The position numbers and the translations under genes were made by a program. The notes under the pieces were generated by a model, which worked only from the letters and a program-made list of their open reading frames with translations, made no database searches and had not been told where the DNA came from. Shown here one piece after another: positions 46,961-60,858 of a stretch of 64,000 nucleotides of DNA. The stretch is from assembly GCF_014084125.1 (NCBI RefSeq), contig NZ_CP048405.1, positions 3,038,001 to 3,102,000 of the forward strand. Reading direction: 5' to 3'. Positions within the stretch are counted from its first letter, which is position 1, and each line of letters opens with the position of its first letter. Origin of the DNA: Streptacidiphilus sp. PB12-B1b (lineage in GTDB: Bacteria; Actinomycetota; Actinomycetes; Streptomycetales; Streptomycetaceae).

Positions 46961-47121
46961 CATTGGCCGGACAGGGCGTGCGGAGGATCAGTATCGTCGG
47001 TCGGGACCGACTGCTGCGCCGACCCAAGTGCACAGTCGAGAACCTCGCCGCGACCACGATCGAACCGGAGTCGGCTCTGAAGCCCAGAAGCTGACGCACC
47101 GGTACCGGAAGGCCAGACCAC

Positions 47122-47988
47122 GTGACGAACAGCAGCACCAGCGGACCTTGCGGCGCCCTCCTCGCCACCAGCGACCTGCACATCAGCTACCCGGAGAACC
47201 GCGACATCGTCCGGGAGCTGCGGCCCCGGACCCCGCAGGACTGGCTGATCGTCGCCGGCGACATCGGCGAGGTCGTCGAGGAGATCGAGTGGACGCTCGG
47301 CCTGCTCAGCGAGCGCTTCGCCGCCGTCGTCTGGGCGCCGGGCAACCACGAGCTGTGGACCCACCCCTCGGACCGGGTGACGCTGCGCGGCGTCGAGCGC
47401 TACCAGCACCTGGTGCAGATATGCCGCCGGCTCGGCGTGCACACCCCCGAGGACCCGTACCCGCTCTGGCCCGGCCCCGACGGCCCGGTGCGGATCGCCC
47501 CGCTGTTCATCGGCTACGACTACACCTTCCGACCGGCCGGCACCGCCACCAAGGAGGAGGCCCTGGCCCGCGCCCACGAGACCGGCGTGGTCTGCTCCGA
47601 CGAGTACCTGCTGCACCCCGACCCCTACCCGAGCCGCGAGGCGTGGTGCGCCGCCCGGGTGGCCGCGACCGAACAGCGCCTCGCCGCCTGCGATCCGGCC
47701 GTGCCGACCGTGCTGGCCAACCACTACCCGCTGGTGCGCCAGCCCACCGACGTCCTGTACTACCCCGAGTTCGCGCAGTGGTGCGGCACCACGGCCACCG
47801 CCGACTGGCACACCCGGTTCAACGTGGCCGCCGTCGTCTACGGCCACCTGCACATCCCCCGGGTCACCCACTACGACGGCGTCCGCTTCGAGGAGGTCTC
47901 GGTGGGCTACCCGCGCGAGTGGCGCCGCCGGGGCGACCGGGCGCCGTCCGGACTGCGCCAGATCCTGCCCGAGGCGACCACCCGTTGA
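47122..47988 (+). CDS. Metallophosphoesterase
   Basis: This 288-residue protein starts at GTG 47122. It has the calcineurin-like signature DLHISYPEN, VAGDIGEVVEEIEW, APGNHELW, LANHYPL and YGHLHIPR in order, giving all metal ligands of a dinuclear metal centre. It probably hydrolyses a phosphoester (nucleotide or protein). It is cytoplasmic. In many Streptomyces this gene directly precedes a phosphopantetheinyl transferase gene. Here its stop codon overlaps the TTG start of what looks like the remnant of one (47985). Confidence 0.9.
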   Translation: MTNSSTSGPCGALLATSDLHISYPENRDIVRELRPRTPQDWLIVAGDIGEVVEEIEWTLGLLSERFAAVVWAPGNHELWTHPSDRVTLRGVERYQHLVQICRRLGVHTPEDPYPLWPGPDGPVRIAPLFIGYDYTFRPAGTATKEEALARAHETGVVCSDEYLLHPDPYPSREAWCAARVAATEQRLAACDPAVPTVLANHYPLVRQPTDVLYYPEFAQWCGTTATADWHTRFNVAAVVYGHLHIPRVTHYDGVRFEEVSVGYPREWRRRGDRAPSGLRQILPEATTR

Positions 47989-48302
47989 TCGAAGACATCC
48001 TTCCCGACGCGGTCGTGTCGGCCGAGAGCCGCGCGCAGCACGAACCGCCCGCACCGCCGACCAGGGCGCCCCGGACGCCGCAACGGACGCCGCAACGGAC
48101 GCCGCCACCGAAACCGACGCCGCCACCAAGACCGCTCGCGCGCCCGGTCAGCGCCGCGCGGAGCCGGCCCGGCGCTCCTGATCGGCCGCGCCCGGAGCCC
48201 CGGAGCCCCGGAGCTCCGGAGCCCCCGGCGCGGCGCCCCGCTCCGCTCAGGCCGCTGCCGCCGCCGGTGCTGCCGAGGCCGCCCGGGTCGGCGGCGGGGT
48301 GA
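47985..48302 (+). pseudogene. Remnant of a 4'-phosphopantetheinyl transferase (N-terminus only)
   Basis: TTG 47985 overlaps the metallophosphoesterase stop (TTGA). The first 14 residues, IEDILPDAVVSAES, match the start of Sfp-type phosphopantetheinyl transferases (IE-LLP-AV--AE). After residue 15 the frame runs into low-complexity Pro/Arg/Thr repeats with no transferase motifs, ending at 48302. Sequence from about 48030 on appears unrelated, so the gene is cut by a deletion or rearrangement. Only the N-terminal resemblance and its position support this. Confidence 0.45.
48075..48098. repeat. Short 12-base tandem repeat in low-complexity DNA
   Basis: ACGCCGCAACGG occurs twice in direct succession, followed by a degenerate third copy (ACGCCGCCACCG). 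It lies just after the truncated phosphopantetheinyl transferase remnant. Confidence 0.7.
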
Positions 48303-49620
48303 GCCTGGACGCGGTCACCTGGCAGACCACGACCGCCACGATCACCAGCGGCATCACCGTCACCCCGTCCGATCCCAGCAGCAGCGTGGCCAGCAGCACG
48401 GCCGTCATCGGCAGCCGCAGCAGGGCGACCGACAGCGCTCCCATGCCCATGGCCGCCCCGGCGATGACCGGCAGCCCGGGCAGGTGGGCGAGCAGGATGC
48501 CGCCGGTCGCGCCCAGGAACAGCGCCGGGAAGATGGGGCCGCCCCGGAAGGCCGCCAGCGAGGCCGCGTAGCCGAGCCACTTGCAGGCGAGCAGCAGCGC
48601 CAGCGCCCCGACCGTGTAGTCCGCCTGGTGCAGCAGCAGGTGCGGCAGGGCGCTCTGGCCGGAGAACAGCACCTCGGACGAAGACATCCCGCTGCCCTCG
48701 GCGTACGCGATGGCGAGCCCGGCCACGGCCAGCCCCGCGAGCGGCGTCAGCAGCAGCCGTCGGCGGTTCACCCGGGGCTGGACGAGCAGCGCCAGCCGCC
48801 GTACGCCGGTGCCGACGAACGCCGCGGCCACCCCGATGACCAGCGCCCAGCCGAACTGCGCCACATTGGGGTGGCCGATCTCGGGCAGCTTCGGGATGGA
48901 CAGGGTGCCCGCCCCGAGCCCGGTCCAGGAGCCGAGGCCGATGAAGACCAGGTCGCCGAGCCCGGCCGCCAGCAGCCCCGGCAGCAGCACGATCCCGAGC
49001 GTCGCGCCGCCCAGTCCGGACGCCTCCATCAGCAGGAAGGCGCCGATCAGCGGCGAGCCGAGCAGGGCGCTGACGGCGGCGAAGCTGCCTGCCGCCCCGA
49101 CCACCGCCTGCACCTTGGCGTCGGTGCCCGGCCGGATCAGGCGTACGGCGTACACGGCCAGACCGCCGCCCAGCGCGATCAGCGGGGCCTCGGGCCCGAT
49201 CACCGCGCCGAGGCAGAGCGAGGCCAGGGCCGCCAGCAGAATGCCGGGCAGTTCCTCGGCGGGCGCGACGCCGCCCGTGGACAGCCCCTCGGCCGGCTGG
49301 TGGCCGCCGTTGCCGGGCAGGTACTGGACGGAGCAGCCGACCAGCAGCCCGGCTGCTCCCAGCAGCGGCAGCGGCCACCACACCGGCGCCCCGTGGAAGC
49401 CGAGATCCCGGGGCAGATCCGTGTACAGCAGCTTCTGGAGCTGGTCGACCGCCTGGAGGAAGCCGTACGCGCCCGCCGACAGCAGGACGCCGAGCACCCC
49501 CGCGAGCACCAGCAGCACCGGATACCCCTTGGCCCGCAGGGGCGCGAAGGGGTCGGCCGGCCGCGCCGCGGAGGCGCCGCCTGGGGGTACGTCCGATGAC
49601 ACCACGTCGCCTGACACCAC
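48247..49620 (-). CDS. ClC-family chloride channel or H+/Cl- exchanger
   Basis: This 457-residue protein has the selectivity-filter motifs LGAVIGPEAPLIALGGG (the GxEGP-like segment, here GPEAP) and a late GGPIFPALFLGA (GxFxP-type), with about eighteen helices. The GSPLIG segment lies between them. The glutamate gate of exchangers corresponds to the Glu in GPEAP. It should conduct or exchange chloride. The start region holds four in-frame GTG codons created by a 15-base tandem repeat, with GGAGG 4-7 bases upstream of the first two. Confidence 0.9.
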   Translation of the reverse strand: MVSGDVVSSDVPPGGASAARPADPFAPLRAKGYPVLLVLAGVLGVLLSAGAYGFLQAVDQLQKLLYTDLPRDLGFHGAPVWWPLPLLGAAGLLVGCSVQYLPGNGGHQPAEGLSTGGVAPAEELPGILLAALASLCLGAVIGPEAPLIALGGGLAVYAVRLIRPGTDAKVQAVVGAAGSFAAVSALLGSPLIGAFLLMEASGLGGATLGIVLLPGLLAAGLGDLVFIGLGSWTGLGAGTLSIPKLPEIGHPNVAQFGWALVIGVAAAFVGTGVRRLALLVQPRVNRRRLLLTPLAGLAVAGLAIAYAEGSGMSSSEVLFSGQSALPHLLLHQADYTVGALALLLACKWLGYAASLAAFRGGPIFPALFLGATGGILLAHLPGLPVIAGAAMGMGALSVALLRLPMTAVLLATLLLGSDGVTVMPLVIVAVVVCQVTASRLTPPPTRAASAAPAAAAA

Positions 49621-49626
49621 GTCGCC
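49597..49626. repeat. 15-base tandem repeat across the ClC start codon
   Basis: TGACACCACGTCGCC occurs at 49597-49611 and 49612-49626. It duplicates GTG start codons (49620, 49617, 49605, 49602), so copy-number change would move the N-terminus relative to the ribosome binding site. Confidence 0.8.
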
Positions 49627-49757
49627 TCCACCGCGCTGTGCTCCTGCCGACTCTCGGTCGATGGTGACAGCCTGATGCCGAGATACCCGGCATTTCGCAT
49701 GTCCGCGCAGGTCAGCGTGGTAGGTGTGGGCCCGTCGGGGCGCCGTGGCCGGGCGCC

Positions 49758-50444
49758 CTAGAGGTCGAGCAGCTCCTCGTGGAAGCCGCCGAAGCCGCCC
49801 TCGCGGTCGATCAGGTGGACCTCCAGGATCCAGTGGGCCCGGTGCCCGGCGCGGTCGGTGCGGCGCATGGGCCCGTCGCTGCCGGGGGCGATGTACGACT
49901 GGATCCGGTCCCCGTCGATCAGCTCGTGCGGGAACTCGCCCACCAGGTGCCCGGAGTGGGTGTGGCCGAAGGTCCAGCCCGCCGCCTCGGACAGCCGCAC
50001 CACCTCGGCGTACAGCTCCTCGCCGGTGATGTCCGGCCGGGCCTCGAAGTAGCGCCGCCCGGCCGCGAAGACCTCGGGCAGGTCATCGCGCAGTCGGTGC
50101 TTGACCGGGTCGTCGCCGAGGACGAAGGTGCGCCCGAAGTCGGCCTCCCACTCCTCGAAGAGCGGGCCGAAGTCGGCGAAGACGATGTCGTCCTCCGCGA
50201 GGACGCGGTCCGGCGGGTTCTCCCGGTAGGGGAGCAGGGTGTTCGGGCCGGAGCGGATGATCCGCTTGTGCCAGTAGCGCTTCACGTCGAACATCTCGTT
50301 GGCCAGGTCGCGGACGCGGTCGCTCACCGCCCGCTCGCTCTGCCCGGGGGTGATCAGCTCGCGGCGCTCCAGCTCGGCGAACAGCTCAACGGCCTTGGCC
50401 TGCGCGTCCAGCAGCTTCTCGGCACGCGTCGTCTCCTCATGCAT
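49758..50444 (-). CDS. M24-family (aminopeptidase P-like) metallopeptidase
   Basis: The ATG at 50444 starts a 228-residue protein containing only the pita-bread catalytic domain: DIVFADFGPLFEEWEADFGRT (two Asp ligands), GHTHSGHLVGEFPHE (His), HWILEVHLID (Glu) and GFHEELL (Glu). All five metal ligands are present. The substrate may be a dipeptide or an amide-type conjugate, and M24-fold proteins also include non-peptidase amidases. A hairpin separates it from the flavin-reductase gene (50520-51008), so it is probably transcribed separately. Confidence 0.85.
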   Translation of the reverse strand: MHEETTRAEKLLDAQAKAVELFAELERRELITPGQSERAVSDRVRDLANEMFDVKRYWHKRIIRSGPNTLLPYRENPPDRVLAEDDIVFADFGPLFEEWEADFGRTFVLGDDPVKHRLRDDLPEVFAAGRRYFEARPDITGEELYAEVVRLSEAAGWTFGHTHSGHLVGEFPHELIDGDRIQSYIAPGSDGPMRRTDRAGHRAHWILEVHLIDREGGFGGFHEELLDL

Positions 50445-50489
50445 GGGCCCGACCCTAGGGCCGGGCCCATGCACCGGCAAACACATTTC

Positions 50490-50504
50490 CCGGGGCGCCC
50501 CCGG
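50490..50504 (-). terminator. Hairpin terminator after the flavin-reductase gene
   Basis: CCGGGG (50490-50495) pairs with CCCCGG (50499-50504) around a 3-base loop. On the minus strand the stem is followed by a mixed A/T-richer stretch, and it starts 16 bases past the stop. Confidence 0.5.
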
Positions 50505-50519
50505 AGGCCCCGGACGCCC

Positions 50520-51008
50520 TCAGGCGGAGAGCCGGCGGAAGCCGCTGGCGTGGAAGACCAGCGGCGGGACGGCCGGATCGGCGTCCAGCTCGTGCACCCG
50601 CAGCAGCACGATGTCGTGGTCGCCCGCCCGGATCACCTGCTCGACGCTGCAGTCCAGCCACGCGCCGGCGTCCTCCAGCAGGACCGCGCCGTCGGCGGTG
50701 GCGCGCCAGTCCAGCGACGCGAACCGGTCCGGGCCGCGCCCGGCCAGCTGTCGGCAGGCCCGCTCCTGGTGCGCGCCGAGGACGCTGACGCCCAGCCGTC
50801 CGCGGCCGCGCAGCACCGGCCAGGTGGACGAGGTGTGCGCGACGCAGACCGAGACCAGCGGCGGATCGAGCGACACCGAGGTGAAGGAGCTGGCGGCGAT
50901 GCCGACCGGTCTGCCGTCGACCAGCGCGGCGACCGCGGTCACCCCGGTCGGGAAGGCGCCGAAGACGCGCCGCAGCTGCTCCGGGTGCAGGGCCTGGTCG
51001 ACGCTCAT
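50520..51008 (-). CDS. Flavin reductase (HpaC/FRP-like)
   Basis: The ATG at 51008 overlaps the stop of the preceding gene (ATGA), implying translational coupling. The 162-residue protein has the flavin-reductase core: RRVFGAFPTGVTAVAAL, GIAASSFTSVSLDPPLVSVCV, the segment LGVSVLGAHQ, ASLDW and a late LVFHASGF. It should use NAD(P)H to supply reduced FMN or FAD to a two-component monooxygenase. The adjacent luciferase-like monooxygenase (51540-52745) is the natural partner. It is the last gene of the minus arm. Confidence 0.88.
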   Translation of the reverse strand: MSVDQALHPEQLRRVFGAFPTGVTAVAALVDGRPVGIAASSFTSVSLDPPLVSVCVAHTSSTWPVLRGRGRLGVSVLGAHQERACRQLAGRGPDRFASLDWRATADGAVLLEDAGAWLDCSVEQVIRAGDHDIVLLRVHELDADPAVPPLVFHASGFRRLSA

Positions 51009-51517
51009 GAGACCACCCGGACCGGTTCGGCGCCCAGGCTCGCCGCCACCTGCGGCCGTGCCGCTGTCAGCCACTTCTCCAGCTCCTCGGAGGCGGTGTA
51101 GTCCGCGTCCAGCAGGAACAGGCCCCGGGTCGGAACGGTGGCGCCCAGCTCCACCAGCACGGGCTTGAGCTGCAGCTCGGCCGCCAGCGAGTGCCGCCAG
51201 TGCGCGCCCAGCAGCAGCGGCACGGCGGTCACCCCGGCCAGCGAGCCGGAGCCGAGGCCGTCCAGGAACAGCTTCAGCAGCCCGGTGTAGGACGCCTTGT
51301 AGGTGGGGCTGGCGACCACCAGCAGGCTCGCGCCCTGGACCTCGGCGGCGGCCTCGGCCACCCGCGGGTCCTGCGGGTCGAACAGGGCCGGCCCGAGGTC
51401 GGCCAGCTCCACGGTGCGGTCGGGTTGACGGTCCGTCAGTCTCCCGGCGACCAGCTCGGCCGCCTCCCGGGTGCGGGACTGCGGCCTGGGGTTGCCGACG
51501 AGGACGACGACGCTCAC
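51005..51517 (-). CDS. NADPH-dependent FMN reductase (SsuE-like)
   Basis: This 170-residue flavodoxin-like reductase starts MSVVVLVGNPRPQSRTREAAEL (FMN phosphate-binding loop) and contains LVVASPTYKASYTGLLKLFLD (the SPTY motif) and VTAVPLLLGAHWRHS. This matches the SsuE/Msu FMN-reductase family that delivers FMNH2 to alkanesulfonate or other C-S cleaving monooxygenases. It lies between the monooxygenase and the second flavin reductase, overlapping the latter by 4 bases. The operon is downstream of a SAM-IV-like riboswitch. Confidence 0.88.
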   Translation of the reverse strand: MSVVVLVGNPRPQSRTREAAELVAGRLTDRQPDRTVELADLGPALFDPQDPRVAEAAAEVQGASLLVVASPTYKASYTGLLKLFLDGLGSGSLAGVTAVPLLLGAHWRHSLAAELQLKPVLVELGATVPTRGLFLLDADYTASEELEKWLTAARPQVAASLGAEPVRVVS

Positions 51518-51539
51518 GGGGTGCTCCTTCGGTGCGGTT

Positions 51540-52745
51540 TCACGGCGTGCGGACGGCGGTGGTGCGGGCGGACGCCGGTCGGGGTCCGGCCTCCTGCGGG
51601 GCCTCCGGATGGGCGGAGGCGGAGGCGGCGTCGGTGTCGGTGTCGGAGCGGGCGGTGTCGGTGTCGGAGCGGGCGGTGTCGGTGTCGGCGGGGTCGACCG
51701 GGGCCCAGGGCCACGGCGGGTCGGGGATGTCGCGGCGCAGCACCGGGGCGACGGCGGACTGGAACAGCTCCAGCGAGTCGCGGTGCTGCGCGGTGGTCAG
51801 CCCGCCCGGCTCGGCGTGCAGGTGCAGCACGCTGTGGCCGAACTGCTCGTGGTAGCGGTGCACCTTGTCGATGATCTGCTCCGGGCTGCCGATCAGGGCG
51901 GAGCTGCGTTCGACGAAGTCCTCCAGGGTGGCGAACACCGGCTCCAGGCCCTGCCGCCGGTGGAAGCCCAGGTAGCCCTCGAAGACCGGCCGGTAGTCGG
52001 CGAGGGCCTGCTGCGAGGTCGGCGCGGCGTAGAAGCCGGCCGTGCCCGCGCCCACCGCGGCCTGCGCCGGGTCGTGCCCGTAGTGCTCCCAGCGCTCGCG
52101 GTAGTAGCGGACGAGGGCGGCGTAGGGCTCGATCGTGTTGGTCACGTTGGCGGAGAACAGCGGATCGCCGTAGCGGGCGGCCAGGTCCACCGACTCGCGA
52201 CTGGTGGCGCTGCCGTGCCAGACCCGGACCGGCCGCTGGTACGGCCGGGGCCAGACCTCCGCGTCCAGCAGCGCCGGACGGAACTTCGGCGAGGCGGTGA
52301 CCTTGTCGTTGCGCCAGATCTCCCGGAACAGCTGGTACGACTCGGCGTTGCGGTCCCACTGGTCCTCGGGGGTGACCTGGAACAGTTCGCGCTGGGCGGT
52401 GCCGTTGCCCTTGCCGATGATCAGCTCCAGCCGGCCGCCGGAGAGGTGGTCCAGGGTGGCGTAGTCCTCGTAGGCGCGGACCGGGTCCAGCAGGCTCAGC
52501 GTGGTGACCGCGGTGAACAGCCTGATCCGCCGGGTGAGCGCGGCGACATGGCTGAGGACGACGGTGGGGGAGGAGGAGATGAACGGGCGCTCGTGCCGCT
52601 CGCCGACGCCGAACCCGTCGAAGCCCAGCTGCTCGGCGAGCAGCGCGCTGTCGACCACCTGCCGGAAGCGCTCCTGGGTGGACGGCTGGACGCCGGTGAC
52701 CGGGTCGGGCGCGTGCACGATCAGGGTGATGGCGATGAACTTCAT
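51540..52745 (-). CDS. LLM-class FMN-dependent monooxygenase (organosulfur island, minus arm)
   Basis: The ATG at 52745 follows GGGGGC; the frame extends upstream but is not protein-like. The 401-residue TIM-barrel protein has GFDGFGVGERHERPFISSSPTVVLSHVAALT, RAYEDYATLDHLSGGRLELIIGKG and ALIGSPEQIIDKVHRYHE in the order of luciferase-like monooxygenases (read in parts). The C-terminal tail contains tandem DTDTARS repeats. It is followed by SsuE-like and HpaC-like flavin reductases, giving a two-component system. It resembles the monooxygenases of S-alkyl-cysteine and sulfonate salvage operons. It is controlled by the riboswitch and leader peptide at 53028-53240. Confidence 0.88.
   Translation of the reverse strand: MKFIAITLIVHAPDPVTGVQPSTQERFRQVVDSALLAEQLGFDGFGVGERHERPFISSSPTVVLSHVAALTRRIRLFTAVTTLSLLDPVRAYEDYATLDHLSGGRLELIIGKGNGTAQRELFQVTPEDQWDRNAESYQLFREIWRNDKVTASPKFRPALLDAEVWPRPYQRPVRVWHGSATSRESVDLAARYGDPLFSANVTNTIEPYAALVRYYRERWEHYGHDPAQAAVGAGTAGFYAAPTSQQALADYRPVFEGYLGFHRRQGLEPVFATLEDFVERSSALIGSPEQIIDKVHRYHEQFGHSVLHLHAEPGGLTTAQHRDSLELFQSAVAPVLRRDIPDPPWPWAPVDPADTDTARSDTDTARSDTDTDAASASAHPEAPQEAGPRPASARTTAVRTP
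51634..51685. repeat. 21-base tandem repeat in the monooxygenase tail
   Basis: A 21-base unit encoding DTDTARS occurs at 51634-51654 and 51655-51675, followed by a partial third copy. It lies in the disordered C-terminal tail and keeps the reading frame. Confidence 0.75.
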
Positions 52746-53027
52746 GCCGCTGCCCCCGGTATCCCGTGGATGCCGGTCACGGCGGCTGCGCCCGGCGGCG
52801 GCAACGGTGGTGCGGTGCGGTGCGGTTGGGGCATGGGAGGTCGCTTCCTGCTCGGGCGGAGGGGGGTGCCACCGGGGCTGCGGGCATGCCGGACGGAACC
52901 TGCGCCGGGCGGTGGCCCGGGGCAGCGTCGGCGGGGGAGGGTTCGGCGAGGGGGAGGGGGCCGGCGGGGGCGGCACGCGGCGCAGCGGTGTGCGGCGGCT
53001 GCCGGGTGAGCCGGACGGAGCCGGGGC

Positions 53028-53108
53028 TCAGGCCGCCGTACAGAGGGCGCTGGAGATGCGCTGCAGATCGATGTGACGACGCGAGTAGGTACCGATGGCT
53101 CGACGCAC
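53028..53108 (-). CDS. Cys-containing leader peptide (26 aa), minus arm
   Basis: GTG 53108 to TGA 53028-53030 encodes 26 residues ending RRHIDLQRISSALCTAA, with AGGAGGGG six bases upstream. The RRHIDL...SSALC pattern is that of the short putative leader peptides found before sulfur genes in actinobacteria, where cysteine codons near the end are thought to sense cysteine supply. It lies about 20 bases downstream of the riboswitch and 280 bases upstream of the monooxygenase gene. It is too short for routine gene finding. The role as an attenuator is inference from family knowledge. Confidence 0.85.
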   Translation of the reverse strand: MRRAIGTYSRRHIDLQRISSALCTAA

Positions 53109-53129
53109 GGCGGTCCCCTCCTGCTCGAT

Positions 53130-53240
53130 CTCGCGCTTGCGGACACCGGTTCGGCTCCGCCGGGTCGTCACCTGGAGCACCCCGCCGCGCAGGAGGGTTG
53201 CTGGTCAGCCAGCCAGGGCTTGCCGCTGACGCTCGTTACC
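53130..53240 (-). ncRNA. SAM-IV-like (SAM-I/IV clan) riboswitch, minus arm
   Basis: Read on the minus strand: GGTAACGAGCGTCAG, AAGCCCTGGCTGG, CTGACCAGCAACCCTCC, GCGGCGGGGTGCTCCAGG and GTGACGACC, in the order of the SAM-I/IV aptamer (GCAACCCTCC core, GGGTGC, GTGANGACC closing strand). A hairpin (53139-53143 with 53156-53160) then leads into AAGCGCGAG, which is also conserved in the plus copy. GTCAG/CTGAC replaces ATCAG/CTGAT of the plus copy, a compensatory change. It should turn the downstream monooxygenase operon off when S-adenosylmethionine is plentiful. Confidence 0.88.
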
Positions 53241-53360
53241 TCTCCCCAACGTAACTCCGCAGGCGCCCCGAACACAATCCCCCCAGGTGGGCCGTGGGCG
53301 GCGGGGTCCGAACCGTGGACGGGCATTGCCGAAAGCCGGTGGAGCGGATAACTTGTGCCC

Positions 53361-53470
53361 TGGTTATGAGCATCAGTGTCAAGCCCTGGCTTGCTGATCG
53401 GCAACCCTCCCACGCGGCGGGGTGCTCCAGGTGACGACCCGACAGGACGCAGCCGTCCTGTAAGCGCGAG
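53361..53470 (+). ncRNA. SAM-IV-like (SAM-I/IV clan) riboswitch, plus arm
   Basis: The order GGTTATGAGCATCAG, AAGCCCTGGCTTG, CTGATCGGCAACCCTCC, GCGGCGGGGTGCTCCAGG and GTGACGACC matches the SAM-IV aptamer of actinobacteria. P1 pairs GGTT with GACC. P2 pairs ATCAG with CTGAT. A 7-bp hairpin (53442-53448 with 53455-53461) is followed by AAGCGCGAG, which is shared with the minus copy. It precedes the leader peptide at 53497 and the transporter operon, which should be repressed by high S-adenosylmethionine. Confidence 0.9.
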
Positions 53471-53482
53471 CCCCACGGGGGC
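53470..53482 (+). promoter_or_regulatory. GC hairpin next to the leader-peptide ribosome binding site
   Basis: GCCCC (53470-53474) can pair with GGGGC (53478-53482), ending 3-4 bases before the GAGGAGG site of the leader peptide. It could couple ligand state to leader translation, but this is inference. Confidence 0.4.
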
Positions 53483-53496
53483 CTGAGGAGGGCGAG

Positions 53497-53640
53497 GTGA
53501 TCCGCATGCAGGTACGCACCACCGGCGACGGCGGCACGCCGCGCCCGTACGGCTTCGGCCGGCTCAGGGTCGCCCGGCGCCATGTCGACCTGCTGCGGGT
53601 GAGCAGCGCGCTGTGTCCGGGGACGTCCGCGGTCTGTTGA
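53497..53640 (+). CDS. Cys-containing leader peptide, plus arm
   Basis: GTG 53497 (or ATG 53506), just after GAGGAGG, opens a 44-47-residue frame containing RLRVARRHVDLLRVSSALC and ending GTSAVC before TGA 53638-53640. The RRHVDLLRVSSALC core is the classic actinobacterial sulfur-related leader peptide, as in the minus-arm peptide, with a second Cys as the last residue. It lies 26 bases after the riboswitch and 133 bases before the first transporter gene. Ribosome stalling at Cys codons would be a second, cysteine-responsive control (inference). Confidence 0.82.
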   Translation: MIRMQVRTTGDGGTPRPYGFGRLRVARRHVDLLRVSSALCPGTSAVC

Positions 53641-53773
53641 CCGCCCGCGCCGTACGGCGTTGCACGCCGTCGGCCCTGCCCGGACCCGCCCGCTCACCCC
53701 CGCACGCCGCCACGCCGCCATGTCCCCACCATGGCGTGGTGCTGCACTTCCCTGGGACGGAAAGCACACCCTC

Positions 53774-54763
53774 ATGAGCAGTTCTGAAACCTCCGCGCGG
53801 CCGTCCGCCGTGCCCGAACCACCGCCGCCGGCGGCCCCGCAGGCCGGGACCGGCGGCCGTCCCGACCTCGATCAGCTGCTCGACGCGAAGCCGGTACCGC
53901 TGCGCCGCCCCGGCCAGTGGGCCTCCGCCCTGGTCCTGCTGGTCCTGTTCGCCATGTTCGTGCACACGGTGCTGACCAACAGCCGGTTCCAGTGGGGCAC
54001 CGTGGGGGACTACTTCCTCAACGCCTCGATCCTGCACGGGCTGGAGCTGACGCTCTGGCTCACCGCGGCGGTGATGGCCACCGGCTACCTGCTCGGGGTG
54101 GGCGTCGCCGCCATGCGGCTCTCCCGGAACCCGGTCCTGCGCTCGCTCAGCTTCGGCTTCGTCTGGCTGGTACGCTCCGTCCCGCTGCTGGTCCAGCTGC
54201 TCTTCTGGTACGAACTGGCCTCGCTGTACCCGCAGTTGTCGCTGGGCATCCCCTTCGGCCCGGAGTTCGCCACGGCCCGGACGGCGCACCTGTTCAGCGG
54301 GATCCTGGCCGCCTTCGTCGGGCTCAGCCTGGACGTCGCGGCCTTCTCCTCGGAGATCATCCGGGGCGGCATCCTGTCGGTGGAGCACGGCCAGACCGAG
54401 GCGGCCCAGGCACTGGGCCTCGGCAACGCCCGGATCTTCCGCCGGATCGTGCTCCCGCAGGCGATGCCGGCCATCGTCCCGGCCACCGGCAACCTGCTGA
54501 TCGGAATGCTCAAGGCCACCTCCATCGTCAGCGTCATCGCGGTCCAGGACCTGCTCTACTCAGCGCAGTTGATCTACAATCAGAACTTTTTGATCGTCCC
54601 GCTGCTGCTGGTGGCGACGCTCTGGTACATCATCCTCACCACGCTGCTGTCGATCGGGCAGTTCTTCGTCGAGCGGTACTACGCCCGGGGCAGCAACCGC
54701 ACCGCGCGCAAGGGGTTCTGGGCGGTCGTCCGGGCCAATGTGCCGCTGGTGGGCCTCTCATGA
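53774..54763 (+). CDS. Polar amino-acid-type ABC permease (cassette 1)
   Basis: The ATG at 53774 follows GGAAAG. The 329-residue protein has a disordered Pro-rich N-terminus, then about six helices. It has the permease EAA motif [28 protein letters not shown] (read in parts) and the segment [20 protein letters not shown] of the HisM/GlnP family. It forms the membrane channel with the ATPase encoded immediately downstream, overlapping by 4 bases (ATGA). With the lipoprotein encoded by 55641 it should import an amino acid or organosulfur compound; the riboswitch points to a sulfur source. Confidence 0.9.
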
Positions 54764-55533
54764 GCGCCACCGCCGAACCGCTGGTGCGGATCAGGGGCCT
54801 GCGCAAGAGCTTCGGCGCCACCGCGGTGCTGGACGGGGTGGACCTGGACGTACGCCGGGGCGAGGTCGCCGTCCTGCTCGGGCCCTCCGGCTCCGGCAAG
54901 TCCACCCTGCTGCGCAGCGTCAACCACCTGGAGAGGCCCGACGCGGGCTTCGTCGAGGTCGGCGGCGAGATCATCGGCTACCGCTACCAGGGCGGCAGGC
55001 TGCACGAGTTGGGCCACCGGGCGATCACCCGGCAGCGGGCCCGGGTGGGCATGGTGTTCCAGCAGTTCCACCTCTTCCCGCACCTGACCGTGCTGGACAA
55101 CCTCGTCGAGGCCCCGGTCGCCGTGCACGGCGTGCCGCGGAAGCAGGCGGCGGCCCGGGCCCGCGAGCTGTTGGACCGGGTCGGCCTGGCCGGGCGCGAA
55201 GGCGCTTACCCCCGACAGCTGTCCGGCGGCCAGCAGCAGCGGGTGGCCATCGCCCGGGCCCTGGCGATGGAGCCGGAGCTGCTGCTGTTCGACGAGCCCA
55301 CCAGCGCCCTCGACCCCGAACTGGTCGGGGAGGTCCTCGCAGTGATCAAGGACCTCGCCGACAGCGGGATGACCATGATCGTGGTCACCCATGAGATCGG
55401 CTTCGCCCGCGAGGTCGCCGACACCGTGGTCTTCCTGGACGGCGGCCGGATCATCGAATCCGGCGCCCCCGGGGAGGTCCTGACCGAGCCGCGCCACGAG
55501 CGGGCCCGCGCCTTCCTGTCCGCGGTCCTCTGA
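54760..55533 (+). CDS. Amino-acid-type ABC transporter ATPase (cassette 1)
   Basis: This 257-residue protein has Walker [10 protein letters not shown], the Q-loop [14 protein letters not shown], the signature [15 protein letters not shown], Walker [15 protein letters not shown] and the switch His in VVTHEIGFA. This is a standard polar amino-acid uptake ATPase (GlnQ/HisP type). It is translationally coupled to the permease gene and very similar to the second cassette ATPase (57653-58441). Confidence 0.95.
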
Positions 55534-55640
55534 CCCCCCTCCCTTCACCGGCGGCAGCGCCCTTCCGGGCCACCCGCTTGCCCTGTGACGAACCGTCACC
55601 TACCTGCCACGCACCCTCGAAAGCCCCGAAAGGAACTCCC

Positions 55641-56645
55641 GTGACGACCGACGGACGCCCTGCCCGCCACGTCTCGCGTACGGCTCTGACCGCGACCGCC
55701 GCCGCTGCCGTCCTCGCCCTGCTCGCCGCCTGCGGTTCCGGCTCCGGCAGCGCCACCACGGCCGCGGCAGCCCCGGCGGTGTCCGGCCCGGCCTCCGCCG
55801 CGCCCGCGGCGGCGTCCACGGCGATCCCCGCCGAGGACGTGGTCTCCGGCATCCAGGCCGACCCCGCCCTGCGGGCCGAGCTGCCCGCGGCGGTGCGCAG
55901 CCGAGGCACCCTCATCCTGGGCACCACCCAGGCCGTGGGCACCTCCAATCTGCCGCACGCGGGCCAGGACGCCACCGGGAAGACCGTCGGCCTGGACGTC
56001 GACCTGAGGGACGCGGTCGCCAAGGTGCTCGGCATCGGCTGGGACGTGCAGTACGGCACCTTTCCCACCGTCATCCCCGGTGTGCAGAACGGGAAGTACG
56101 ACGTCGGTCAGGACAACTTCGGTGCCACCAAGGCCCGGGAGAAGATCGTCGACTTCGCCACCTACCTGGACGACGGCCAGTCCTTCCTGGGCGCCAAGAG
56201 CATTCCGACCGACTCGGTGACCGGCCTCACCGACCTCTGCGGCTACAACGTGGCCACCAGCCCCGGCTCCACCTTCCAGCAGATCCTCACCGACGGCGCC
56301 GCCAAGTGCGCCGCCGCCGGCAAGAGCCCCTACAAGGTGCAGTACTTCTCCGACACCGCGCCGATCTTCCTCGGGCTGGCCAACGGCAAGGAGGACATCT
56401 ACTTCGGCCCGACGCTGAGCCTCAAGTACGAGGCGCTGCACCTGGCGGGGCCCAAGTACCTCGGCCAGATCAGCACCACGCCGGTCGGCTTCGTCACCGC
56501 CAAGGGGTCACCGGTCGCCAAGGCGCTGAGCGACGCCGTCAACAAGCTGATCGCAAGCGGCGACTACGCCCGGATCCTGGCCAAGTGGGGCGTCACCGGC
56601 AGCGGGGTCACCACGTCCGTCGTCAACCCGCCCACCACCTTCTGA
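55641..56645 (+). CDS. Solute-binding lipoprotein of amino-acid ABC transporter (cassette 1)
   Basis: The GTG at 55641 follows AAAGGAA. The signal peptide ends in the lipobox LLAACG, giving a lipoprotein tethered outside the membrane. The mature domain is a family 3 binding protein: GTLILGTTQAVGTSNLPHAG, VGLDVDLRDAVAKVLG, VQNGKYDVGQDNFGATKAREKIVDF and a final SGDYARILAKWGV. It captures the substrate for the cassette-1 permease. Substrate not assignable from sequence; cystine, methionine derivatives or other organosulfur amino acids fit the context. Confidence 0.92.
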   Translation: MTTDGRPARHVSRTALTATAAAAVLALLAACGSGSGSATTAAAAPAVSGPASAAPAAASTAIPAEDVVSGIQADPALRAELPAAVRSRGTLILGTTQAVGTSNLPHAGQDATGKTVGLDVDLRDAVAKVLGIGWDVQYGTFPTVIPGVQNGKYDVGQDNFGATKAREKIVDFATYLDDGQSFLGAKSIPTDSVTGLTDLCGYNVATSPGSTFQQILTDGAAKCAAAGKSPYKVQYFSDTAPIFLGLANGKEDIYFGPTLSLKYEALHLAGPKYLGQISTTPVGFVTAKGSPVAKALSDAVNKLIASGDYARILAKWGVTGSGVTTSVVNPPTTF

Positions 56646-56660
56646 CCGGGGGAGCCCGAC

Positions 56661-57656
56661 ATGTCCGACCCCGTACCCGCGGTCTCGACCGCGCAGAGAC
56701 CGGCCGCCGCCGCGCCCCGCCCGGCGCCGGTGCAGCAACCGGCGACCGCGCAACGGGTCGTGCCGCTGCGCCACCCGGGGCGCTGGATCGCCTCGCTGGT
56801 GGTGCTGGTGCTCGCCGCCCAGTTCGCGCACGGGCTGGTGAGCAACCCCTTCTACCAGTGGGGCCGGTTCGACTACTGGTTCCTGCGCCCGGTGATCCTG
56901 CGCGGCCTGGGCGTGACGCTTCAAGTCACCGCACTGAGCGCGGTGTTCGGCCTGGCCGGCGGCGTCCTGCTGGCGCTGGCCCGGCAGTCCCGCAGCCCGG
57001 TGCTGCGGGCGGTCAGCTGGGTGTACATCTGGCTGTTCCGCTCGGTGCCGCTGATCGTGGTGCTGCTGATCCTGTACAACTTCAGCGCGCTGTACAAGAC
57101 GCTCAGCCTCGGCGTGCCGTTCGGCCCCGGCTTCGTGCACTTCGGCGAGTCCTCGCTGGCGACCGAGCTGGTCATCGCCACGCTGGGGTTGAGCCTCAGC
57201 GAGGCGGCCTACGCGGCCGAGGTGGTGCGCTCCGGCATCCTCTCGGTCGACCAGGGCCAGCACGAGGCCGCCGCCGCGCTCGGGCTGCCCAAGGGCTACC
57301 AGTTCCGCCGGATCGTGCTGCCGCAGGCCCTGCGAGCCATCGTCCCGGCCTATGTGAACCAGCTGATCGGGCTGGTCAAGGGCACCTCGCTGGTCTTCTA
57401 CGTCTCACTGCTGGACCTCTTCGGCGAGGTGCAGAACATGGGCAGCACCTATCCGGGCGACGTGGTGCCGCTGCTGATGGTGGCCACCGTCTGGTACGTG
57501 ATCCTGACCAGCGTGGTGTCGGTGGTGCAGTTCTACGTGGAGCGCTACTACTCCCGTGGCGCGCTGCGGACGATCCCGCCGACCCCCCTGCAGAAGCTGC
57601 GCGCCGGCGTCCGCCGACTGCGCGAGCGCGCCGAACTCGGAACGGTGAACGGATGA
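56661..57656 (+). CDS. Polar amino-acid-type ABC permease (cassette 2)
   Basis: This 331-residue permease begins 15 bases after the cassette-1 binding-protein gene. It has an Ala/Pro-rich N-terminus, about five to six helices, [21 protein letters not shown] and the EAA motif [21 protein letters not shown]. It overlaps the next ATPase gene by 4 bases, the same arrangement as cassette 1. It is a paralogue of the protein at 53774-54763. Confidence 0.9.
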
Positions 57657-58441
57657 GCACTCCCACTCTCGCCCCGGCCGAGGCCGCCGCCGTGGAGGTC
57701 CGCGGCGCGCACAAGTGGTACGGGGCGCACCGCGTGCTGGACGGGGTCGACCTCACCGTCCAGCCGGGCCAGGTCGCGGTGATTCTCGGGCCGTCCGGCT
57801 CGGGCAAGTCCACGCTGCTGCGCGCGGTCAACCACCTGGAGAAGCTCGACGTCGGCCATGTCAGCGTCAACGGCGAACTGATCGGGGTGCGCCGGCACGG
57901 GGAGCGGCTCAAGGAGCTGAGCGAGCGGGCCATCCTGGCGCAGCGGCGTGGGATCGGCTTCGTCTTCCAGGGCTTCAACCTCTTCCCGCACCTGACCGCG
58001 CTGGAGAACGTCACCGCCGCGCCGGTGGCGACCGGCCGCGCCACCAGGGAGGAGGCCCGCGCCTTCGCGCTGGAGCTGCTCGACCGGGTCGGGCTCGCCG
58101 ACAAGGCCGACGCCTATCCGCGCCAGCTCTCCGGCGGCCAGCAGCAGCGGGTGGCCATCGCCCGGGCGCTGGCCCAGCGGCCGGGCGTGATCCTCTTCGA
58201 CGAGCCGACCTCCGCGCTCGACCCGGAACTGGTCGGCGAGGTGCTGTCCGCCATCAAGGACCTGGCGCGCGGCGGAACCACGCTGATCGTGGTCACCCAT
58301 GAGATCGGCTTCGCCCGCGAGGTCGCCGACCTGGTCGTCTTCCTCGACGGCGGCCGGATCGTCGAGCAGGGAGCCCCGGCCGAGGTGCTGGACAACCCGC
58401 AGCACCCGCGCACCCGGGAGTTCCTGAGCAAGGTGCTCTGA
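57653..58441 (+). CDS. Amino-acid-type ABC transporter ATPase (cassette 2)
   Basis: This 262-residue protein has Walker [11 protein letters not shown]-loop [14 protein letters not shown], signature [16 protein letters not shown], Walker [14 protein letters not shown] and the switch VVTHEIGFA. It is nearly co-linear with the cassette-1 ATPase, especially over the last 120 residues, indicating duplication. It energises the permease encoded just upstream. Confidence 0.95.
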
Positions 58442-58522
58442 ACCCTCTTCCCCCGAACCCGCTTTCCTGCCCGCCATACCCGACCTGTCCGCCACACCCG
58501 AACCAGCAACCCCAGGAGAACC

Positions 58523-59560
58523 ATGTCCCGCGCCGCCTTCAGACGCGTCCGTATCCTCCCCGCCGGATTGGCTCTGCTCACCCTCGCCGGGGGCCTGACC
58601 GGCTGCGCGAGCAGCTCCACCGCCAGCACCGCCGCCGCCGGCAAGGGTGCCGCCGCGCCCGCCGGCAGCACCACCGTCGACGTCGGCGCCCTGTCCAACG
58701 GTGCGGCGACGCCGGTGGCGCTCACCGTCCCCGAGGTGGCCTCGATCCGAGCCGAGCTGCCCGCCTCCGTGGTCAGCGGCGGAACGCTGGCCATCGGCGT
58801 CGGCATGCTGCCCGCCGGCTCGCCGCCGCTGGGCTTCGTCGGCTCCGACCAGTCGACCCTCACCGGCTCCGAGCCCGACCTCGGCCGCCTGGTCGCGGCG
58901 GTGTTCGGGCTCAAGCCGGTGTTGAACAATTCGACCTGGGACAACCTGTTCGTCGGCATCGACAGCGGGAAGAACCAGCTGGGCTTCTCCAACATCACCG
59001 ACACCGAGCAGCGCAAGACCAAGTACGACTTCGCCTGCTACCGGCAGGACAACGTCGGCTTCGAGGTCCTCAAGAGCAGCAGCTGGCAGTTCGACGGCAC
59101 CGCCGAAAGCCTCGCCGGGAAGACCGTGGCCGTGTCTGCGGGCACCAACCAGGAGAAGATCCTGGAAGCCTGGCAGGCCACGCTCAAGAGCCAGGGCAAG
59201 ACGCTGACCATCAAGTACTACCCCGACGCCAACTCCACCTATCTGGCCCTGGATTCGGGCAAGATCGACGCCTACTTCGCCCCCAACCCCAGCGTCGCCT
59301 ACCACGTCAGGCTCACCGCGAGCACGCCGAACCCGACCCGCAGCGCGGGCAAGTACTCCGGGGCCGGGGCCACCCTGCAGGGGCTGATCTGCGCCACCAC
59401 CAAGAAGGGCGACGGGCTGGCGCAGCCGGCCGCCGACGCCATCAACTACCTGATCAAGAACGGCGACTACGCCAAGTGGCTGGCCGCCTGGAACCTCAGC
59501 AACGAGGCCGTCGCCAGCTCGCTGGTCAACCCGCCCGGCCTGCCGCTGAGCAACACCTGA
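58523..59560 (+). CDS. Solute-binding lipoprotein of amino-acid ABC transporter (cassette 2)
   Basis: This 345-residue protein has a signal peptide ending LTGCASS (lipobox). The binding-protein domain has GGTLAIGVGMLPAGSPPLGFVG, EPDLGRLVAAVFGLKPV, IDSGKNQLGFSNITDTEQRKTKYDFACYRQD and NGDYAKWLAAWNL. It is distinct in detail from the cassette-1 protein, so the two cassettes may differ in specificity. AGGAGA precedes the ATG. Confidence 0.92.
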   Translation: MSRAAFRRVRILPAGLALLTLAGGLTGCASSSTASTAAAGKGAAAPAGSTTVDVGALSNGAATPVALTVPEVASIRAELPASVVSGGTLAIGVGMLPAGSPPLGFVGSDQSTLTGSEPDLGRLVAAVFGLKPVLNNSTWDNLFVGIDSGKNQLGFSNITDTEQRKTKYDFACYRQDNVGFEVLKSSSWQFDGTAESLAGKTVAVSAGTNQEKILEAWQATLKSQGKTLTIKYYPDANSTYLALDSGKIDAYFAPNPSVAYHVRLTASTPNPTRSAGKYSGAGATLQGLICATTKKGDGLAQPAADAINYLIKNGDYAKWLAAWNLSNEAVASSLVNPPGLPLSNT

Positions 59561-59652
59561 CACCCGGCCGCGACGCCGCCCCGGCCTTGACCGCCGTCTC
59601 CGTTCCCGCCGATCCCCGACCACCGATCCCGACCCGAGAGGACGACAGCACC

Positions 59653-60858
59653 GTGGCAGACGCCGGAGCAGTGGCCGGAGACGAGCACCCCCGCAGCGGC
59701 GCCCGCCCGCCGACGGCCTTCCACTGGTTCCTGCCGACCGGTGGGGACGGCCGACGGCTGGGCGGTTCCGTGCACGGCCTGGGCATCGGCGCGGCCGGAA
59801 CCGGCGCGGACGGCAGCGGGGACGGCAGCGGGGACGGAACCGTCGGCGGCGCGGGCGGCGCGGCCGCACGGCGGGGCACGGGGGAGCGCCCCGCCGATCT
59901 GGGCTACCTCACGCAGCTGGCCGAGGCCGCCGACCAGCTCGGCTACGAGGGCGTGCTGACGCCCACCGGGGCGCACTGCGAGGACGCCTGGATCGTCACC
60001 GCCGCGCTGATCGCCCGGACCAGGCGGCTGAAGTTCCTGGTCGCCTTCCGGCCCGGCCTGGTCGAGCCCGCCCTCGCCGTCCAGACCGCGGCCACCTTCC
60101 AGCGCCTCTCGCAGGGGCGGCTGCTGCTCAATGTGGTGGTGGGCGGCAGCGACGCCGAGCAGCGCGGCTACGGCGACCGGCTCGGCCACGACGAGCGCTA
60201 CGCCAGGGCCGGGGAGTTCCTGGACGTGGTCCGGGCCTCCTGGAGCGGCGCGCCCTTCGACCACGAGGGCGCGTACTACCGGCTGCAGGGCGCGTAGCTG
60301 CGCCGCCCGCCGGAGCCCGCCCCGGCGGTGTACGTCGGCGGCTCCTCCGAACCGGCCCTGGCCGTGGCCGCCCGGCACGCCGACACCTACCTGACCTGGG
60401 GCGAGCCGGTGCCGCTGGTCGCCGAGAAGATCGCCCGGGTGCGCGAGCGGGCCGAGGCCGCCGGCCGGACGCCGCGGTTCGGGCTGCGCATCCACGTGCT
60501 CAGCCGTGACACCGCGGCCCGGGCCTGGGCGGACGCCGACGCGCTGATCACCGGACTGGACGACCGGGCGATCGCGGACGGCCAGCGGCGGCTGCGGGCG
60601 CTGGACTCCGAGGGCCAGCGCCGGATGCTGGCGCTGCACGGAGGCTCCCGCGACCGGCTGCTGGTCGCGCCCAACCTCTGGGCCGGGATCGGCCTGGTCC
60701 GCGGCGGTGCGGGGACGGCGCTGGTGGGCAGCCACGACGAGGTCGCCGAGCGGATCGCCGAGTATCGTGCCGCTGGCGTCGACGAGTTCGTCCTCTCCGG
60801 CTACCCGCACCTGGAGGAGGCGTACACCTTCGCCGAATGCGTCCGCCCGCTGCTCTGA
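59653..60858 (+). pseudogene. SsuD-like FMN monooxygenase with in-frame TAG
   Basis: The GTG at 59653 follows GAGAGGA. FHWFLPTGGDGR near the start, then GYEGVLTPTGAHCEDAW, LKFLVAFRPGLVEPALAVQ, QGRLLLNVVVGGSDAEQRGYGD and YAGGSSEPA-like [15 protein letters not shown] and TYLTWGEPV are the alkanesulfonate monooxygenase (SsuD) order. The codon after YYRLQGA is TAG (60295-60297). The same frame continues to 60858, so a single base change has split the gene after about 214 codons. Intact SsuD would oxidise sulfonates to aldehyde and sulfite with FMNH2. A Gly-rich insertion near residues 35-75 is unusual. Sequence error, real nonsense mutation or readthrough cannot be separated. Confidence 0.8.

Follow-up and report, generated by a model that had tools for sequence, protein, structure and literature searches.

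Can one leader RNA read both ends of the methionine-cysteine route? This question is raised by an intergenic region of Streptacidiphilus sp. PB12-B1b within the 64,000-nucleotide stretch of DNA that we analyzed (the window). The region lies between the start of a monooxygenase gene (52745, - strand) and the start of an ABC permease gene (53774, + strand) and holds two divergent SAM-IV aptamers. The first-pass annotation had read each arm as a SAM-I/IV aptamer, a hairpin and a short cysteine-containing peptide. Riboswitches and leader-peptide attenuators are mostly regarded as separate devices, and a conserved stack would show a single leader that senses the two metabolites together. The aptamers and their parts were located as follows.

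53362..53472, + strand: SAM-IV aptamer, right arm (cmscan RF00634, 96.2 bits, E 2.7e-16)
53442-53461, + strand: P5 hairpin of the right-arm SAM-IV aptamer
53462-53470, + strand: tail AAGCGCGAG of the right-arm SAM-IV aptamer
53128..53240, - strand: SAM-IV aptamer, left arm (cmscan RF00634, 92.7 bits, E 1.7e-15)
53138-53130, - strand: tail of the left-arm SAM-IV aptamer

The covariance search of both strands confirmed two divergent SAM-IV aptamers. Both scores (96.2 bits on the + strand, 92.7 bits on the - strand) exceed the RF00634 gathering score of 38 bits, and both arms align to positions 1-116 of the 116-position model. SAM-I (RF00162) was unlisted even at E<=1; the tool reports only the best among overlapping matches of one clan, so a weaker SAM-I match at the aptamers may still exist. 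By covariance score the window aptamers are SAM-IV, and binding of SAM is predicted from this identity. Three SAM-IV matches occur in the whole genome.

The hairpin and AAGCGCGAG had been taken for a third part of the leader. Alignment to the Rfam model placed this sequence at the P5 hairpin and the 3' tail of SAM-IV, and an independent third hairpin was rejected. We counted the unit as two parts because both elements fall inside the 116-position model. The aptamers had also been called near-identical, and the two arms turned out to be 80.2% identical. The covariation noticed in their stems is real. It was counted in 44 of the 79 leader-bearing aptamers described below, using a structure that includes pairing between the tail and the P3 loop. 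In this alignment 96.9% of the cells pair and 7 pairs are changed on both sides. The double-change cells numbered 74 versus 25.6 in shuffles, and pairing dropped to 28-48% in slid controls. The tail-to-P3 pseudoknot was paired in 98.9% of the cells with zero double changes, so that it is backed by its presence and not by covariation. This pseudoknot is absent from the Rfam structure line, and we take it to be a regular feature of SAM-IV.

Downstream of the aptamers, the following leader elements were found.

53486..53491, + strand: Shine-Dalgarno AGGAGG of the right leader, read from the sequence, 13 nt past the aptamer
53497..53640, + strand: right leader ORF, start GTG 53497 or ATG 53506, stop TGA 53638, core RRHVDLLRVSSALC
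53614..53616, + strand: right leader, terminal conserved Cys codon (TGT)
53117..53122, - strand: Shine-Dalgarno AGGAGG of the left leader, read from the sequence, 5 nt past the aptamer
53028..53108, - strand: left leader ORF VRRAIGTYSRRHIDLQRISSALCTAA, 26 aa
53040..53042, - strand: left leader, terminal conserved Cys codon (TGT)

A short ORF with RRH(I/V)DL...SSALC thus follows each aptamer on the same strand, as had been annotated. Both peptides exceed the curated cut-off (27 bits) of the NF042934 family ("putative leader peptide"), with 30.8 bits for the right and 31.4 bits for the left leader. The cut-off of NF042936 (Ms4527A leader, 45 bits) was not reached by the window peptides (24.5 and 22.4 bits). 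With our own leader HMM, the right leader scored 34.0 bits and the left leader 41.8 bits. Seven NF042934 matches above the cut-off were found in the genome, of which 2 lie behind SAM-IV. The spacing, described as the same in both arms, is different: the RRH core starts 46 nt past the left aptamer and 102 nt past the right one. Counted from the GTG start, the left peptide has 26 aa and the right one 47 aa. The interval first drawn around the unit (53130-53640) truncates the left leader, which runs from 53108 to 53028 on the - strand.

The operons behind the two leaders consist of the following genes.

51540..52745, - strand: luciferase-like FMN monooxygenase, CE1758-like, left operon gene 1 (TIGR04036, 246 bits, below the cut-off of 479.1)
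51005..51517, - strand: NADPH-dependent FMN reductase, SsuE-like (TIGR03567, 92.6 bits, below the cut-off of 164.05)
53774..54763, + strand: amino-acid ABC transporter permease, right operon gene 1 (best NCBIfam match cystine permease, sub-cut-off)
54760..55533, + strand: ABC transporter ATPase (best match L-cystine TcyN, sub-cut-off)
55656..56645, + strand: ABC solute-binding protein, amino-acid type (assigned start tentative; sub-cut-off matches)
56661..57656, + strand: second ABC permease
57653..58441, + strand: second ABC ATPase
58523..59560, + strand: second solute-binding protein (best match cystine-binding, sub-cut-off)

The right operon carries two ABC systems of the amino-acid type; their permeases and ATPases are closest to cystine transporters, all at sub-cut-off scores. 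Judged from these matches, both window operons probably serve organic-sulfur scavenging. An alkanesulfonate monooxygenase-like ORF was also seen at 59476-60297 (+ strand). Only positions 19-156 of the 346-position model match before the stop, and this ORF may be interrupted or continued in another frame.

SAM-IV was present in 14/14 genomes of the genus and in 118/121 genomes of the family sample. It falls into two classes. Copies of the first precede a cysteine-desulfurase-like gene (Aminotran_5; representative L205), and the second consists of secondary copies. The secondary set held 89 copies, that is, 33 of the 47 genus-set matches and 56 of the 97 family-set matches. Left out before the first count were 14 copies of 132-137 nt in the genus set and, in the family set, 40 copies judged to be of the desulfurase class by score and length, plus 1 sub-cut-off partial match. 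The leader HMM was grown from 50 leaders found by regular expression, and 600 nt after each aptamer were searched. A leader was found downstream on the same strand in 79 of the 89 secondary copies and on the reverse strand in 0 of this first set; since the HMM was built from these 79, only the held-out copies and two misfiled ones are independent of it, and since the sequences are related, the counts are not independent trials. Among the held-out secondary copies 16 of 19 had the leader, two of them in G131 from another family of the order, and the three misses were all on one contig of G153.

The desulfurase class was checked with 72 copies, namely the set-aside copies and 18 further class members. 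None of the 66 copies with a desulfurase-like motif within 1,500 nt had a leader. The two misfiled copies (G063 C35 and G120 1912124) were among the 72 and carry the leader, both with TGT. The other four copies without the motif comprised one at a contig end, one with a class-like next ORF and two unassigned. Conversely, 3 of the 10 misses in the secondary set (G063, G120 and one G027 copy) sit before a desulfurase-like gene. We kept the value of 79/89 as first counted, despite the misfiled copies. With the leader in 95 of 108 secondary SAM-IV copies, the stacked unit cannot be called uncommon. In other actinobacteria, the stack was present in at least 1 among the 120 pattern-selected contigs listed, that of Streptomyces sp. 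SID3212; one strict pattern was used, and this is no census. The leader also exists by itself. We examined 35 NF042934-type leaders without SAM-IV nearby (34 of the 117 family matches and one weaker match), many of which are orthologues (loci among L262-L271 and L311-L338).

Target genes were surveyed by scanning one representative per downstream cluster. The representatives included luciferase-like monooxygenases, amino-acid-type ABC permease, binding protein and ATPase, and GST C-terminal-domain proteins. Peptide-type ABC parts, an NMT1-type binding protein, GNAT, FAD-oxidoreductase and DUF1684 proteins were also found. In four genomes (G006, G012, G074 and G092; L195, L196, L238 and L240) the stack precedes polyketide synthase genes, and in three of these four a large LuxR-type regulator accompanies the polyketide synthase. 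This stack position is a hint that sulfur may control a biosynthetic cluster.

The leader core behaves as a coding sequence. In frame, 44% of the pairwise codon differences were synonymous, and the shifted frames gave 17% and 8%. The terminal conserved Cys was encoded by TGT in 66/66 leaders that have Cys there (first set, 41 genomes), in 15/15 held-out leaders and in 35/35 leaders with no SAM-IV match nearby. In 280 neighbouring ORFs, only 15% of the Cys codons were TGT (n=546). Elsewhere in the first-set leaders, counted from position -30 onward, Cys was TGC in 58 and TGT in 16 cases; in the leader-only set it was TGC in 29 and TGT in 5. Because the leaders within each set are related to one another, the codon counts too are no independent trials. 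A single tRNA with the anticodon GCA reads both Cys codons. The fixed UGU makes the sensing step testable by one synonymous change. A second rare-codon preference was observed at the conserved core Asp, which was GAT in 34/79 leaders versus 5% in neighbouring ORFs.

The recurrence of the stack in dozens of related bacteria suggests that these operons read two sulfur signals before they are switched on. The proposal that the stack reads both ends of the methionine-cysteine route held in part. The SAM-IV identity, a translated-looking leader and a link to Cys are supported by the scores, the coding signature, the UGU codon and the targets, and the sensing steps are put forward here as a model. 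Two sensors would act in series on each operon. The SAM-IV aptamer at the 5' end would read SAM, and the leader ribosome-binding site would be the first element that it can reach. Behind the HIDL core the ribosome would meet a single rare UGU, at which charged tRNA-Cys would be read, the nascent peptide probably helping. When sulfur is plentiful, the leader would be either uninitiated (SAM bound) or read through (Cys present), and the C-rich RNA behind it would be left open. Once exposed, this RNA would allow the operon to be shut off by Rho or by downstream structure. When SAM and Cys are both low, the ribosome would initiate the leader, stall at or near the UGU and cover the C-rich RNA, and the scavenging genes would be made. 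For the window we give this two-input switch, with SAM as the gate on leader translation, the UGU as the point where the leader reads Cys-tRNA, and Rho possibly involved, a probability of about 0.48, just short of even. Its extension to the family is tentative: the riboswitch output might generally be translation of a Cys-sensing leader, with one fixed UGU as detector, so that scavenging loci and some polyketide synthase loci would stay closed unless SAM and charged tRNA-Cys are both low.

A start codon and a Shine-Dalgarno sequence were recognized in 58/79 leaders, 12-54 nt past the aptamer (median 34). With only 5 nt between the left aptamer and its Shine-Dalgarno sequence, the nearest possible riboswitch output is initiation of the leader. 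A simple scan of 52700-53850 found 0 terminator-like sites, so the intrinsic terminator of a classical attenuator was not seen there. No sigma70-type promoter was found by simple scan either. The RNA past each leader is rich in C and poor in G.

53641..53760, + strand: C-rich, G-poor stretch, right, possible Rho loading region (C/(C+G) of 0.67 in the first 80-nt window and 0.64 in the second)
52908..53027, - strand: C-rich, G-poor stretch, left, possible Rho loading region (C/(C+G) of 0.70 in the first 80-nt window and 0.71 in the second)

The median C/(C+G) in the 120 nt past the leader stop was 0.617. In comparison, it was 0.506 in the leaders, 0.487 in the aptamers, 0.500 upstream of the aptamer and 0.518 in other intergenic DNA. 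A weaker bias also occurs after the other SAM-IV class (0.560), which is a point against the model. The C-rich RNA past the leader suggests a Rho step, which would fit the one suggested for mycobacterial Cys leaders that have no terminators (PMC1262725).

Instead of acting in series, the two modules may be independent. SAM-IV alone would then act on transcription or RNA stability, the leader would respond separately to Cys, and their adjacency would be additive. Each module is indeed found alone, SAM-IV in the 66/66 desulfurase-class copies and the leader in the 35 leader-only cases and at mixed loci (see below). In S. clavuligerus, moreover, a premature transcript arises from a SAM-IV located upstream of an aminotransferase class-V gene (PMC8269248). 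However, the 5-nt gap of the left arm is too short for a separate expression platform, and the lack of intrinsic terminators in the scanned 52700-53850 points the same way. We consider independence of the two elements unlikely, while giving it more weight than the readings below.

The gate may also work in the opposite direction. Without SAM, CCCUCC of the aptamer would hide the leader Shine-Dalgarno sequence; SAM would free it, and leader translation would repress the downstream gene. In the predicted free fold of the left arm, CCCUCCUGC pairs with GCAGGAGGG and hides the leader Shine-Dalgarno sequence. Its mean unpaired probability increased from 0.01 to 0.34 when the aptamer was forced, and that of the right arm from 0.30 to 0.45. 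The left-arm fold would thus hide the site in the absence of SAM, opposite to the direction of the proposed gate. A repressive uORF beside a riboswitch is also known from M. tuberculosis metE (PMC11260477). But CCCUCC belongs to the aptamer itself, and the pairing is not conserved. Over the 79 leaders, P3-to-Shine-Dalgarno complementarity was 5.97 bp in own pairs versus 5.93 bp in swapped pairs, which is no gain, and a conserved P3-to-Shine-Dalgarno switch was rejected as a family feature. We regard the reversed gate as improbable.

The Cys codon itself may be merely part of a stall motif, with the leader acting as an arrest peptide that senses something besides the charging of tRNA-Cys. The HIDL core is conserved beyond the needs of a codon counter. 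Classical attenuators carry a run of codons for the amino acid that they sense; no such run was found: from core to stop, 51 of the 79 leaders contain one Cys, 20 contain two, 6 contain three and 2 (G049 C2 and G055 C28) contain none. The terminal Cys at +10 is absent in 13/79 leaders, all upstream of GST-like genes, so stalling at a Cys codon cannot be general. Against the arrest peptide stand the UGU, fixed wherever a terminal Cys occurs, and the targets, which fit sulfur use. This explanation seems to us about as improbable as the reversed gate. Among the GST-linked leaders (L190, L242, L244, L234 and others), 13/14 were without the terminal Cys and ended in ...HIDLLRVCSAY, ...SSAY or similar. 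Finally, long chance frames are common in such GC-rich DNA (47 ORFs of >=100 aa over 47000-60000), but that the short ORFs are chance frames is scarcely credible in view of their strand-specific recurrence, the success with held-out copies, the frame-specific synonymous change and the NF042934 matches.

Both modules of the two-input switch are already known, and joint action of a riboswitch with a uORF is known for B12. Mycobacterial polycysteine uORFs, reportedly leaderless according to the title of the 2020 work of Canestrari, likewise are short Cys-coding leaders; our leaders mostly have a single Cys and begin downstream of an aptamer. The window aptamers agree with SAM-IV (RF00634) in the full-length match, in P1-P5 with the tail and in covariation. 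The NF042934 (cis_reg_atten) and NF042936 (Ms4527A) families share the (I/V)DL...C core with our leaders, which differ in lying behind a riboswitch. In the reannotation of S. lividans, one SAM-IV is given, before a cysteine desulfurase, and 0/8 leader peptides are called cysteine-dependent, though the MetL sequence contains cysteines (PMC8079986). The available text on the SAM-IV copies located ahead of one enzyme gene in S. lividans and S. clavuligerus describes no leader peptide (PMC8079986, PMC8269248), whereas here the leader is the first likely frame.

Mycobacterial Cys-coding uORFs before Cys-related genes have been assigned to translation attenuation (PMC13236596). In M. tuberculosis, metE and ppe2 each combine a B12 riboswitch and a translated uORF in one leader. 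These riboswitches bind B12, one of the uORFs is located inside the metE aptamer, and amino-acid sensing by the uORF is undescribed in the text available (PMC11260477). The tandem attenuators of Salmonella mgtCBR also place two control elements in one leader; these are two leader ORFs, and a SAM aptamer is absent from the account available (PMC3641672). The Rhodobacterales cysS attenuator uORFC-8-2 likewise has conserved uORF Cys codons, but unlike here they are two in tandem, UGC is dominant and an intrinsic terminator is present (PMC8632094). Among the matches listed in open-licence PMC text, we recognized no report of a SAM-IV and leader stack or of the fixed UGU.

The mirrored pair had been thought to result from inverted duplication. 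The arms are 80% identical to each other and about 90-91% identical to their nearest counterparts elsewhere (the left aptamer 90.4% to the left arm of G084, the right aptamer 91% to the ABC arm of G011). A recent inverted duplication in this genome was rejected, because each arm is closer to the counterparts of other species than to its partner; at five divergent loci elsewhere, moreover, SAM-IV stands on one arm only (see below). In G003, G005 and G011 the arms of the pair are 89-91% identical, and local conversion is possible there. Divergent SAM-IV pairs were also found in G000, G003, G005, G008, G011, G028, G084, G087, G153 and G157, though the leader is missing from some arms (in G087 from the minus arm, in G153 from both arms of the C346 pair). 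At the latter locus (L298, G153:C346), a span of about 1 kb holds three SAM-IV matches, including a divergent pair, and the leader is absent.

Mixed arrangements were found as well. Five divergent loci (two in G002 and one each in G001, G006 and G007) have a leader behind SAM-IV on one arm and, on the opposite arm, a leader that lacks SAM-IV. Each mixed locus has one SAM-IV match; at G002 C127, the opposite leader scores under the family cut-off. Natural loci with one or both modules are ready-made controls. From the mixed loci, the SAM-IV aptamer looks like an optional module placed ahead of the leader.
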